From: Xestospongia bergquistia
Lineage: Eukaryota; Porifera; Demospongiae; Haplosclerida; Petrosiidae
NCBI GenBank assembly: GCA_963965975.1
Contig: OZ014419.1
Coordinates: forward strand, 7,024,150 to 7,088,149
Reading direction: 5' to 3'
DNA: 64,000 bases
Below the pieces are notes generated by a model. It saw only the letters and a program-made list of their open reading frames with translations, was not told where the DNA came from and ran no database searches. The translations under genes and the position numbers were made by a program. Positions 2,430 to 58,865 of this stretch are shown one piece after another; within the stretch, counting starts at the first letter, position 1; each line of letters starts with the position of its first letter.

Positions 2430-5400
2430 TTATACTGGTAAATTCAGTGTTATTAAATGGTTGATGCAGTGAGCTAAACTAGACTCATTATGGGAAGCTG
2501 TTGTCTCAGGGTTCTGAGGTTTACGAAGGACCTGATCAACATATTGCAGAGTAGGTGGGAGCTCAACACGAGAACTTGACGTGCGACGAGCAACAAAATT
2601 ACTATTAGTTTTAGGATCATGGAGAATTGGTAGAGTTACTTGAACTTGATCAGATTGTCGAATGAGATTTAACTACAAGATATAGATATATAAGGTATTG
2701 ATAATACTCTTGTAGTGGTGCTTACAAAGAGTAGAACTTTGCCACGATATATAATACCAGGAGATCCTGCACGAGCAATATCACCGAGATCAACACCTTT
2801 TGGAACAACTAAACAGTATTCCACTCTCCATACGGTATCAGGTGAATGGTGCTATAATACAAAGATAGGAGAGAGTTAGTGGTGTCTCTATTTTACCATC
2901 TGTAACTGCATTATATGGACGCAGGCTTTGAGAGTGCGTAATGGTATCCAGAATAGTTGCATAAATGCACTCATAGCAGGAAAAGAAAATGGTGATTTAA
3001 CAACCTAAATAAAGAGGAATGATACATATGTGTGATTGTGATAGAGACTAACATGTCGATGAAAGAAATCAGTCAACAATTGTAACTCGCTCTGCGTCCA
3101 AATGTTTTCTAAGATAAATAACAAAACATAATAATGTATTAATTACAGGAGTTTACCTTGTACAGGTTTAGCACTAAGGTGTACTGACATCATGGTAGAC
3201 AGATCCAAGGAGAGAGACAGAGTGAGTGTGTCTGTCTTGTATGAAAACACACCACGATCAACAGAGAGAAAAATCATCTATAGAGACGGAGATATTGTCG
3301 TAATGGTAAATATAATATATCGTGTACTTGTTGTTGAAGATAACGATCTTGTGACGCTTCCTTTACCCAATGTAACAATAATGAAAGCGATCCTATAAAT
3401 CTTTCTAATGGGTTTAACCCCTCGTGACTGGCTTCTATTAAAGTATTCAACTGAGCCATAGTTACAGAACGTTCCCATATTGGTGCTTCAAGAGAAATCT
3501 TTCCATCTGATGGTAACTCACTACCTGGGGGAGGAAGGGATGGGATTGATGGTAAAGGAGAGGCTAAACGAGGGGATGGAAGAGGCAAAAGGGAGTGGTT
3601 AAAACTCGATCGGATACCACTGGATGGGATTGATAGCTGAGGTTCGTCAATTAAATCATCTGGTAACTTTCCTGTTAATTGTATTTCTAGGAAAGACTAA
3701 AAGGGTGGAGTCAGCAAACCCAAACCACACCCATACAAATTACCTGTGCTATTCTTAGTAATGTTGGCTGAGTTACTATTGGAGGCATAGAGTCCTTCTG
3801 ACAAGTGACACCTAAAAAAGATGTGGCTAAGTTACCATGACAAATCACACAAACATCTTACCACAAAATGACACACCACCTTCAGGTAATAATCTTATAT
3901 TGAGTGACCTAGTGGGTGTGGTCAAGGATAAAATTAGTTCTAAATATAATAATATACAATGGTTGTCATGGATACACGTTGCCACGTGTTAGCCTGAGAT
4001 AAGACGGCGTAATGCCAACAATCTAATTATAGTGAGAGTAGTATAAAAGTAAATATGATCATTATACCTGATATCCTAATGTATTTTTGAAGCCACTAGC
4101 AAGCTTACTTAATGCTACTCTAGTCAAACAGAGCCCCTAGGCATAAGAACAATGGAGTAATGGATTGCAGGTGGTATAACCTTACTTGGACAAGAAGAGG
4201 GAGCGATTTTGTTTCATGAAGATAATGTTGTAATGTAGAGGTCATATAGTAGTGAGGAGAGGTGGGAGGACAATTAATGACCACGCCTTCTCCTTGAGCA
4301 TGAAGATTAATCTAAAGGGATGTAGTTATTAAGTTCTGTGGGTCTAAATATACTTACAATATATTCTCCATATTGTACAGTGAGAGTATCATAATTGTAG
4401 CTTTTTATAGAACATTGCTTGAAAGGACCATATCCTAATTATAATAGCATGCTATTAATAAAGCCACACCCACTTTCTAACCTTCATTAAGGTAGTGCTG
4501 TAATTCTAATGTCTCCATCAACAAAGTTGACTTATCAGACCAATCTTGGCGGATTAGTTCGCCAATCTTTTTAAGATGTAATCTTCTTTTAATAACGATA
4601 GGAGAAGCATTTGGTTTGAAAATATTTCTAAATACTATCTAAAAAAATAATGAATGAAGAATCAAATTTTGAGAGCAAACTTACTTTACACTGTACATCA
4701 TGTGGGTGTGGCCACAGCTCATATGAAAGCAACAATGAGGAAAGAAGAGAGTCTCCTTGTGTCCTACCACTTCTAGACTCTATACTAAACAGTTTTAGAG
4801 AAGAAGTACCTAAGACATCTATCATCTTAGCACTGGCTGATATTCCCAAAGCTGATAACTAAAAATATTCGTCAACAGATGAACAGACATTTTATATGTA
4901 CCGATGCCTGAAGTTCAGCTAATGCATCTTGTGTTGCTAGGAGACCAGATAAGGGAGGAAGTGACAATGACGGATATAAACATAATCGTTTGGCAGATGG
5001 CAATAATAAACTGTGATCTTGAAGCTGACAATATGATAATAAATATCAGATTAATTGTTAATAACAATAACTACCTTTCGTTTCAGTTTAGCACTACTTT
5101 GATTCACTGTGTGAGAACATAATGATTAAATGGGTGTGGTTTGAGGATGTAGTTACATACCTGTAATACTTCCTGATAATTGATCAAAAGCCATTTTAGC
5201 ATCAATTTCAATCAGTACTTCCGTCTTTAAAAATGCCTTTGGTATTTCTTCATTGGGAGTTGTAGGAATTATGGCACTAGGTACTACTCTTAATAAATGA
5301 TAGTTATTACAAAGTGCTCCATCCATCCACTGTGTCCCCAGAACAAAATACGTGTTTTCATTGAGTTTTAAGAAAAGAGTACGAGAATTATTTGGTAAAC

Positions 5401-53448: not shown

Positions 53449-54750
<1,302 letters not shown>

Positions 54751-54873
54751 CCAGTGTGGAACCTGCTAATTTCCAGCAATATTATTTATTAATCATAACT
54801 AAAATTTATTTATGAAGATTAATTGAAATAACTTTTAATAACTTTAGCCACACCCTCAGTGTTGCAAGTAAAA

Positions 54874-55610
54874 ATGGATCTCAGAATAGGTCTAATTTCA
54901 ATTTTATTTCTCACTCTCTTTTGTGGGACAGATGGAGGACCAAAACTAACTCATCCTGCATTTACTACGACTGCTGAAATGACTGTTAAAGTCATCTACT
55001 GGTAAGCTATTAAACACACTAGTGATTAATGACTATATGAAAATTATGTCTCGTTATTATAGTTACAGTTGAGGGTATAAAAAAGTATTCGAGCAGTACT
55101 CAGCTTTTTTGCGTCAAGATATACCATCCTTAAAAATGGAGGGGAGTGTCTATCCACCAAGTGATGCTGCTCGTTTACTTAGTAACATTGCATTTGTCAT
55201 GCGTTTATTATTGATTGGGTTGTTGCTGGGCGGTCCAGAAACTTTACAGAAAGTAGGTATTGATAACCCTCCTCAATGGTTTCTATGGATGTGTGAAAAT
55301 AAGGTAAATATATTTATTATAACAGTGTTAACATGTTGTTATATAGATGACTTCAATTCTACTGGTGATTGTAGTAGGAGGACAAATTGAGAATCAGTTA
55401 CTCTCCACTGGTGCATTTGAAGTCTATGTTAATGGTAATATATATGAATATCAAATAATTTAGTTTTAAATGCATATTTTGTTTATAGATGAGTTAGTGT
55501 GGTCTAAATTAGAGTCAGGGCGATTGCCATCTCTACCAGAATTCAAAGAACTCATTGGACAAAAACCTGTTCATTTCTCTTCAGAGCCATTAGTAGAAGT
55601 GGCGTCTTAA
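54874..55610 (+). CDS. SELENOT: Selenoprotein T (UGA-encoded selenocysteine)
   Basis: ATG 54874 opens a signal peptide (MDLRIGLISILFLTLF). Exon 1 ends at 55001 in VIY plus the first two bases TG of a Cys codon; exon 2 starts at 55063, giving C-Y-S-U-G-Y-K with the UGA at 55070-55072. This is the C-x-x-U redox motif of SelT, whose Cys/Sec pair is thioredoxin-like in the ER. The remaining protein, VFEQYSAFLRQDIPSL, GSVYPPSD, LSNIAFVMRLLLIGLLLGG, PPQWFLWMCENK, then GAFEVYVNDELVWSKLESGR, fits the family with TAA at 55610. A SECIS hairpin lies at 55656-55704. Not a pseudogene: the frame continues for about 150 codons after the UGA. Confidence 0.95.
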
Positions 55611-55655
55611 TATTGACTTACTGATAGCGTGAAGATAGAGGTTGTTAACAAAAAA

Positions 55656-55704
55656 ATGACAAGATCAGATGAATCTAGTATAAACTGGAATCTGATCTTT
55701 GATG
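55656..55704 (+). promoter_or_regulatory. SECIS element of SELENOT (type II)
   Basis: ATGA (55656-55659), a perfect 10-bp stem AAGATCAGAT / ATCTGATCTT (55661-55670 with 55690-55699), the TGAT partner at 55700-55703, and conserved AA at 55672-55673, twelve nt after the quartet. A five-pair mini-stem TCTAG / CTGGA (55674-55678, 55685-55689) caps the loop, as in type II elements. It lies 46 nt beyond the stop, in the 3' UTR. Confidence 0.93.
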
Positions 55705-55835
55705 ATTATATTTGTTAACTGCCTTAATCTTTACTGGAACTATCATGCTGTATGTGTGCTTGTATCATAAATTTATTTATACTAATAATGAATGGGTGGA
55801 GTTTGCCACGCCCATTAATTTACAATAATTTTACA

Positions 55836-56379
55836 ATGCCTAAAGGAAAAGGTGCTTCTGGTGGGGGAAAAGGAGGTGCCAAAAGTAAAGGAGGAGGAGC
55901 AGGTAAATGGTTGCCATGGATTCACAATGACCTCTATTTTTACACATTAAGAGGCATCAGCAGAATCTTCTGGAGGTAAAGGGAAGAAAAGTGGTGCTGG
56001 AAATGCTATTAAAGTAGGTATAATAGTTAGTGTTGTCAGTATATATGTATATATTAGGTAAGACATATTCTCTGTGAGAAGCATTCTAAAGTAATGGAAG
56101 CAATGGAAAAATTACATGCTGGTCAGAAATTTAGTGAAGTGGCTACTGCATACAGTGAAGATAAAGCTCGTCATGGAGTAAATTGTTGCTATATGTGTGT
56201 AATGATTTACATTACTATAGGGTGATCTGGGTTGGATGACACGTGGATCAATGGTTGGTCCTTTCCAGGATGCTGCTTTCCAATTGGAACCAAGTACTGT
56301 TGATCGCCCTGTTTATACTGACCCTCCAATTAAAACTAAATTTGGTTATCATATTATAATGATAGAAGGAAAACGATAG
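55836..56379 (+). CDS. PIN4: Parvulin-type peptidyl-prolyl isomerase
   Basis: ATG 55836 opens a Gly/Lys-rich tail ([20 protein letters not shown]), as in PIN4 (Par14). The parvulin fold begins with [19 protein letters not shown], then [40 protein letters not shown], and the end [14 protein letters not shown]. The proline-directed loop is not phospho-specific, as expected for PIN4. Four exons. It acts in the nucleus and mitochondria in rRNA processing and chromatin. The start is 226 nt after the SELENOT stop. Confidence 0.94.
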
Positions 56380-56463: not shown

Positions 56464-58632
56464 TTAATGGATCCCACTTTGCAAAAGAGACATCATACTG
56501 TCTTCACGAGTGGGCAAGGTCGATGGTTTTTTAAAACATTTCCATACTCTTAAAGTTTCATCAGCACCAGCTGATATAACGCGAGTTTTATTGGGACTAA
56601 TAGACATATGTAATACGCGATCTACACCAACACAATTACACGATAGTAGCTATGTTATTAAGTCTTACCTCCATGTCCTTTTAGCTCAGCAATTTTGGTC
56701 ATAATAGGATACTTCCATATTGTCAACTGATGACGAGGATGACCGTGTGATGTAATCAATTCTTGATGCTCTTTGCACCACATAATAGATGATACCTAAT
56801 AAGGTGTGTGTAGATGTAGGTCTTAAATGGCCACGTCCTCTTACTTGGGATTTAGTGTTCGTGGATTGGAGGCACTCTCCTGTATGTACATCCCAAAAGT
56901 GAATCATTTTATCTTTAGTACCTCCACCAGTTGCAAGGAGATGACTCTGCCAGGGACACCAAGAAATTGCCTACAAAATGCATGTAATTATAAATAACTG
57001 TTTGTTGACATAAATGCTTAAAGTATTATTGCACATCTTTCAACACACTTGAAGCCTATTAATTTAATTGTCTCCCAGACTAATCAGGTATTCCCTAAAG
57101 GACTTGCTAAAGACAGACTCACTTTAACAGCAGCTTGATGTCCTGATAAAACCTGAACTGGTTCTGATTTGACAAGAGGACTCCAAATGCAGACTTCATT
57201 ATCATTACCACCTGATGCCAAGTAACGTCCGTCTGGTGACCATTTTAGACCACATACTTCCATTGTATGAAAATTAAGTTGTTCTACTAAATGTGTTTGT
57301 TGACGCACATCATGTAGATGGATTTGTCCACTACGACTTCCACTAAACAATGAAATACAATGTCATATAACAATGACTAATATATTATATAACATAGGTA
57401 TTAATATTATTTACCTTGCTAATATATGTCCATTCCAATCAAGACTACTAACCCTATCTTTATGACCTCTCATTGTCCGAACTTTCTTTTTTTTATCAGC
57501 ATCGTATAACTACAATAAAGAGCATTAAATAGAGTTTACTTATATTGAATGTACATACTTGAATTGATCCATTACTTAGACCTACAGCTAAAAATCGTCC
57601 TTTCTCAGCCCAACATACTGAAGTGATCAAAGTGTCTTCGTAACCAATATCAGATGGTTGTTCAGCCTGACCAGTGTCTCCATCCCATAAGTATAAAGAA
57701 AATCCTAGTGCTATAGCCACAACATTTTTAGTACTCCAGTCCAGAATATTAAGATCTAATGTTGTATTAATAGTTCTAACATATATTTAGTGATAATGTC
57801 TTACAATAATCATTCACAAGTTCGGGTGCATCTAAAATCTTTTCAGGATTAGGACAGATCTTTCTTTTCTCTTTTGTACCAGTATAACGTTGTACTAATG
57901 ATCGTGAAAGCGAAGCTGAGTTACCTAATCCACCACTTGTAACATATTGTGGTACTGAGTCTATTCATAATATATTATAAGATATCAATTTCATTATTAT
58001 AACTACATACCAACATTAGGAGTGACGGTCTTAAATGTTAGTACTCCTCGTGGGACACTACCTTGAAGTGATGCCATTAAAAGAGCGTTTCGAAATACTT
58101 CAGACTTGTCACCACACTCCTTGCTGTCTCCTTCTTCATCTTCCCTTTCATTTTCTTTGTCGGTGTCAGCAGATACTAATGTTTCTCGTCTCAACAATAG
58201 GAATGAGCCATAGTCATCACTGACTGGTCGCTTTGGTATAAACCTGTTTGGGAAACAAGTTATCAACATAATAACAACAATGGTCTACTAGTCTCATCCT
58301 CATCCTCCCAAAAATTGGAGAGTTTAAGAATGAGGCTAAACATACCTGCAGTGAGTGGTTGAACTGGTTGGAGTAGTACCTACTTTAGGAGTAGTTCCCT
58401 TTGGAGTCGTTGTTGGATGAGGTGTCCCGCTACTGGCTCTAGATGGTGTTAAATGAACCGACTTGGTTTTTCTATCTTTAGGAGTTTTGTTGAAATGTGA
58501 TGCTTGATACAGCCTCAAGGGAGACGATTCTGATTTTGAACGAGTAGGTAATTTATGCCATCTTTGTTGTGGAGCTTTAAGAGGTTCTGGTAAACGTGTA
58601 ATGTCTCTTACACTACTACCACCAGTCGCCAT
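56464..58632 (-). CDS. CDC20: APC/C activator CDC20
   Basis: ATG 58632 ([17 protein letters not shown]). The C-box [17 protein letters not shown] spans an intron near 58340/58240; the canonical D before RFIP is Cys. A KEN box lies in [10 protein letters not shown] near 58170. Seven WD repeats follow: [20 protein letters not shown] near 57710, VGLSNGSIQ near 57570, [13 protein letters not shown] near 57330, [20 protein letters not shown] near 57220, then [16 protein letters not shown] near 56890, and the end QSGIH at 56464. The usual C-terminal Ile-Arg is Ile-His here. CDC20 brings APC/C to mitotic substrates and is the target of the spindle checkpoint. CRE and CHR-like boxes lie upstream. Confidence 0.93.
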
Positions 58633-58652
58633 GCTTGTGTGTAAGAATGAAA

Positions 58653-58705
58653 TTCGAAATATGATTTGAAAAGAGAGGCAAAGTACTTTATAGGAAATGA
58701 CGTCA
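58653..58705 (-). promoter_or_regulatory. CDC20 promoter: TTCGAA/TTTGAA boxes and CRE TGACGTCA
   Basis: TTCGAA at 58653-58658, TTTGAA at 58665-58670 and a full CRE palindrome at 58698-58705, all within 75 nt of the CDC20 ATG. The hexamers resemble CHR boxes bound by DREAM/MuvB at mitotic genes; inference from motif and gene type. Confidence 0.4.
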
Positions 58706-58865
58706 CCAGAATTGATCTGATTGGTCAGAAATTTAGCAAAGCTGAAGGTGTGGCTGTGCTTGATAAAATTTAATTTTATATACTTTTTCAGAGAAATAAA
58801 AATTCACGTAATTATAAAATTATATTTGTAGTTATTTTATTGATGTTGAAGTGATTGTCTCTCGT

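Follow-up and report, generated by a model that had tools for sequence, protein, structure and literature searches.

The window, i.e. the whole 64 kb stretch of DNA that was analysed, contains on its plus strand a four-exon gene, at positions 54874-55610, whose predicted product is a selenoprotein T (SelT). The spliced frame comprises 579 nt and encodes 192 residues, with a TAA at its end and a sole in-frame UGA at 55070-55072 (residue 46). An in-frame TAA at 54829 lies upstream of the ATG, introns 1, 2 and 3 all begin with GT and end with AG, and retention of intron 1 would bring an immediate stop into the frame. Exon 1 ends with TG (55001) and exon 2 starts with T TAC AGT TGA GGG (55063), so that the two together read Cys-Tyr-Ser-UGA-Gly. 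The hydrophobic N terminus encoded by exon 1 is likely a signal peptide. Positions of the individual features are listed in Table 1.

An earlier note on this DNA had read Cys-Tyr-Ser-UGA from the exon join, with seven nucleotides of exon ahead of the UGA, and the same residues were obtained here at 55001/55063, with seven exon 2 bases preceding the UGA. Its statement that the frame stays open to 55610 also holds, once introns 2 and 3 (43 and 54 nt) are removed. The note described the Sec codon as rebuilt at the splice junction; however, it is the Cys codon (TG/T) that is split, and the UGA lies whole within exon 2. It also placed the start of the feature at 55002. The gene is indeed present, but its coding sequence begins at 54874, and it is intron 1 that starts at 55002.

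Table 1. Features of the SelT gene and its SECIS element (positions in the window).
Feature	Position	Strand	Remarks
SelT exon 1, coding part	54874..55001	+	from the start codon to the first two bases of a Cys codon; hydrophobic N terminus
Intron 1, 61 nt, GTAAGC...TATAG	55002..55062	+	
SelT exon 2, holding the putative Sec codon	55063..55303	+	
UGA read as Sec codon, residue 46, within C-Y-S-U	55070..55072	+	frame; family profile spans the UGA
Intron 2, 43 nt	55304..55346	+	
SelT exon 3	55347..55434	+	frame; profile match
Intron 3, 54 nt	55435..55488	+	
SelT exon 4, coding part, with TAA end	55489..55610	+	
SECIS, type II	55644..55719	+	fold, pattern scan, shuffle control

Genes were also recognised on either side. 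A cytidylyltransferase gene on the plus strand (53450-54750, PF01467 in one exon) ends some 120 bases ahead of the SelT ATG. On the other side, 226 bases past the SelT stop, a PIN4-like parvulin gene (55837-56379, PF13616) starts on the same strand; the exons and ends of both neighbours were read by eye. Further downstream, a minus-strand gene at 56490-58800 contains WD-repeat-like pieces and was Cdc20/Fzr-like by eye.

The spliced protein matched both the Pfam Rdx family PF10262 (E = 1e-17, 64.5 bits, cut-off 22.6) and the NCBIfam model TIGR02174, which covers SelT, SelW and SelH (E = 6.5e-24, 84 bits, cut-off 34.2). In the latter, 73 matched profile positions were dispersed across residues 38-176. 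When the 146 residues after the UGA were scored alone against TIGR02174, they still reached 65.3 bits (cut-off 34.2); the 45 residues ahead of the UGA gave no match in a profile search of their own. The post-UGA part matched the model from its first residue, at profile position 10, which indicates that the coding sequence continues directly through the UGA. The C-x-x-U motif, formed by C-Y-S-UGA at residues 43-46, is located at the N-terminal end of the fold.

Hydropathy peaks were observed at residues 1-19, 81-101 and 123-138. The middle piece of 65 residues (71-135), which contains hydrophobic stretches, matched no Rdx model when searched alone, and its one match to another family was at chance level (E = 0.075). 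We take SelT to be marked off from SelW and SelH by a hydrophobic N terminus together with an insert, likewise hydrophobic, between the fold halves; both occur in the predicted protein, which points to SelT rather than to either of the others. The top relative of solved structure, by sequence, was C17orf37 (2ljk, E = 2.6e-6). The next structure match, allophycocyanin alpha-B (E = 0.0018), was taken as chance because the Pfam Phycobilisome model stayed under its cut-off (E = 0.34).

Searches of the organism's own genome covered 146 Mb in 21 contigs. The Rdx family search exceeded its cut-off only at the SelT locus, with one weaker match on another contig (C8), and a DNA query of 773 bases (55063-55835) found its own locus only. 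Relatives of SelT were also sought in two further collections. Twelve stretches in viral_contigs fitted the pattern and none was confirmed. In genome_contigs, one stretch out of 61 was confirmed, a bacterial Rdx-like piece (L016) that matches SelT residues 134-167 only and is of no use for the SelT question.

The predicted SECIS begins 33 bases past the SelT stop. Its core reads ATGA (55656) C AAGATCAGATG AA TCTAGT ATAA ACTGGA ATCTGATCTT TGAT (55700). The quartet strands, ATGA at 55656-55659 and TGAT at 55700-55703, supply the UGA ... GA pair at the base of helix II, although the folding program cannot model non-standard quartet pairs and places some standard pairs there. Below the quartet, GTTAACAAA and TTTGTTAAC form a perfect lower helix of 9 bp (55644-55652 / 55711-55719), and helix II consists of at least ten pairs. 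The apical AA, unpaired in the minimum-energy fold, follows ATGA by 12 nt and is topped by a mini-stem, a 6-bp hairpin with a four-base loop. Type II elements are built in this way: an unpaired AA lies at 9-13 nt from the quartet on its apical side, and a mini-stem follows.

The SECIS fold had an energy of -25.1 kcal/mol (z = -6.24), and none of 200 shuffles was equally stable. Of 5000 shuffled versions of the 226-nt stretch after the stop, 70 contained the SECIS pattern, and none combined it with an energy ≤ -23.9. The type II SECIS with a mini-stem proposed in the earlier note is borne out by these values. The string given there is shortened: it lacks a single C and some 17 bases of the apical part, among them the mini-stem. 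The 9-bp lower helix was absent from the description. A scan of both strands of the entire 64 kb for a loose SECIS pattern gave four matches, where random sequences averaged 2.5, and at ≤ -20 kcal/mol one match in the window against 14 over 30 random sequences. The loose pattern itself is not rare across the window, and it is the position behind the SelT gene that makes the SECIS call convincing. At gathering scores, no Rfam SECIS family matched anywhere in the window, and none did so in 55600-55850 (251 bases) at E up to 10, which counts only weakly against the element. In the mRNA, 486 nt separate the UGA from the quartet, a value inside the 207-5207 nt from UGA to SECIS given for mammals in the consulted part of PMC3316567.

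We also observed parts of the Sec machinery in the genome. A tRNA-Sec scored 78 bits and was, among the 13 matches listed, alone over the gathering score of 47, with a model that is not fully selective, as it had matches in 14 of 14 control genomes and matches over the cut-off in five of them. ARAGORN called the same locus tRNA-SeC with anticodon tca. SepSecS was represented by five matched stretches (best E = 6.8e-30). The search for eEFSec with TIGR00475 yielded 11 matches in the genome, none over the cut-off, and did not pin the gene; loci were fetched for eight of the 11, and by eye, an eEF1A-like gene accounts for two of the matches and an EF-Tu-like gene for three. The L7Ae domain gave nine matches, among which a reading of the plus strand of the loci did not pin SBP2; one of the nine resembles ribosomal protein L7A by eye. 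The Sep15/SelM family had no match in the genome, but as its control likewise matched nowhere, this absence carries no weight.

Three further genes in the genome, resembling SPS2, SelK and GPx, carry an in-frame TGA at the Sec position. An SPS2-like exon on the minus strand (locus L017, G000:C10:1743500-1749500) reads LKG-TGA-GCK, with the codons checked, and a SECIS-like hairpin lies behind it, its core at 4272 of the reverse complement. This gene was matched exon by exon, and no single match reached the cut-off of the family (best E = 3.5e-6). Two more SPS-like matches lie on the same strand, about 6 and 16 kb from it, each with four TAA inside. A SelK-like gene (L039, around 1401-2050) ends with GGGG-TGA-G-stop; its family match is weak (best E = 0.002), and a SECIS-like hairpin with AUGA lies behind it, at position 1969 of that locus. 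A GPx-like exon reads NVASE-TGA-G, with the TGA at position 1540 of L033 (G000:C5, near 5574933); our own scan of the plus strand of L033 (7.1 kb) showed no SECIS behind this gene. A second GPx gene has Cys in place of the TGA.

The 18,997-base contig C21 is a mitochondrial genome and looks demosponge-like. Its long frames that were recognised by eye share a single strand, and TGA stands for Trp in them (code 4). The tRNAs reported by ARAGORN number 25, and an ATP9 gene was present (PF00137, E = 1.6e-13). ATP9 in animal mitochondrial DNA is a demosponge trait. A mitochondrial tRNA with anticodon tca (L032, 4705-4775) was labelled tRNA-Sec by ARAGORN; it is more likely tRNA-Trp under code 4.

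Taken together, these observations lead us to assign a probability of about 95% to the stretch being a functional SelT gene of animal origin, most likely from a demosponge. The proposal of the earlier note, a SelT with a Sec-decoded UGA, is supported at the level of sequence by the frame, the family profile and the SECIS fold, along with tRNA-Sec and SepSecS in the same genome. Removal of the three very short introns would leave an mRNA whose sole in-frame UGA lies in the C-x-x-U redox motif. The SECIS in the 3′ UTR would recruit the SECIS-binding protein (SBP2) and the Sec elongation factor (eEFSec) with Sec-tRNA, and delivery of the latter would allow the UGA to be decoded as Sec, as in the standard mechanism. 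The product would be a thioredoxin-like oxidoreductase that belongs to the Rdx family and is hydrophobic at its N terminus and in an insert, probably residing in the ER membrane and acting via its Cys/Sec pair. The earlier note held that SelT needs its motif for activity, and the same is stated of SELENOT and C-x-x-U in the part of PMC11032602 consulted. The next exon junction is located 231 nt downstream of the UGA. Given the 50-55 nt rule for nonsense-mediated decay, a rule that, according to the available text of PMC4911915, does not explain every case, the SelT mRNA would be open to such decay when selenium is short.

It is also conceivable, though we regard it as unlikely, that alternative splicing bypasses the UGA or disrupts C-x-x-U, in which case part of the output would be Sec-free or inactive. 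Among 17 AG sites between 55020 and 55302 that might serve as acceptors for exon 1, five are in frame (55063, 55069, 55147, 55162 and 55183). Splicing to 55147, 55162 or 55183 would keep the frame and skip the UGA, and the 15 bases ahead contain 11 pyrimidines at 55183, 10 at 55063, 9 at 55162 and 4 at 55147, so that on this measure 55183 is at least equal to the proposed acceptor. Use of 55069, six bases downstream of the proposed acceptor, would retain both frame and UGA and delete Tyr-Ser, leaving C-U with the motif lost. Moreover, the consulted section of PMC3316567 describes a SelT isoform that carries an additional exon within intron 1. Nevertheless, the three UGA-skipping acceptors would remove 28, 33 and 40 residues, respectively, including the profile-matched stretch after the motif. 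Only 55063 of the 17 sites yields C-x-x-U, and it is presumably the AG that comes first after the branch point.

Less probable still is that the UGA is a true stop, either in a decayed copy or at the end of a 45-residue peptide: an in-frame UGA is present, and termination there would leave a junction far enough behind for the 50-55 nt rule to predict decay of the mRNA (PMC4911915, in the part available), but the 146 residues beyond it keep the profile at 65.3 bits with no second stop or frameshift, a SECIS lies behind the gene, the genome holds tRNA-Sec and SepSecS, and neither the 773-base DNA query nor the Rdx family search found a second intact copy, so that these searches showed no twin from which this gene could be decayed. 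For a functional SelT gene, annotation with the standard code would plausibly break the reading frame, in line with the misannotated selenoproteins of Ciona mentioned in the accessible portion of PMC2874816.

Among known systems, SelW, SelH and C17orf37 have the Rdx profile in common with the SelT described here. These three proteins are not known to possess either an N-terminal hydrophobic segment or an insert between the fold halves. Vertebrate SELENOT differs within the motif, with CVSU as opposed to CYSU in the present gene; both conform to C-x-x-U and both have a SECIS in the 3′ UTR (PMC3316567 and PMC11032602, each in excerpt). As reported in the consulted text of PMC3316567, the mammalian SelT 3′ UTR is divided between two exons, the last of which carries the SECIS. 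In our gene, by contrast, the SECIS follows the stop so closely (33 nt) that an intron of the sizes found in this gene would not fit between them. The best-ranked matches of a literature search contained no usable report on an intron position beside the SelT Sec codon.

The closest comparison is with another sponge, Amphimedon queenslandica, for which the available part of PMC3473315 reports the same family, with a single SelT gene and its SECIS. Since SelT was thus already reported from a sponge, we consider the present gene an ordinary family member. In a literature search on sponge selenoproteins, judged by titles and the beginnings of abstracts, only PMC3473315 was on the topic; PMC9925728, judged on passages of its text, was not. 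What is gained is a single well-preserved SelT gene together with its SECIS and some of the Sec machinery, probably of a second sponge.

The two sponges differ in the base that precedes the SECIS quartet. In the three elements located with our own scanner, this base was A in SelT, A in the SelK-like gene and U in the SPS2-like gene (UUGA). In Amphimedon, GUGA was found in 12 of 21 elements, including those of SelT, SelK and SPS, and the SelT SECIS is GUGA_AA there and AUGA_AA here (PMC3473315, in the portion consulted). In view of this difference, the present DNA is probably not that of Amphimedon. A change of this base across a whole sponge lineage, with A, A and U here against G in the same three genes of Amphimedon, is a tentative reading that we find rather doubtful. 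If it is true, GUGA would not be sponge-wide, and the sponge SECIS-binding protein would tolerate A, U and G at that position. Comparing the SECIS cores of different sponges offers a small, directly testable point on the freedom of the base preceding the quartet.
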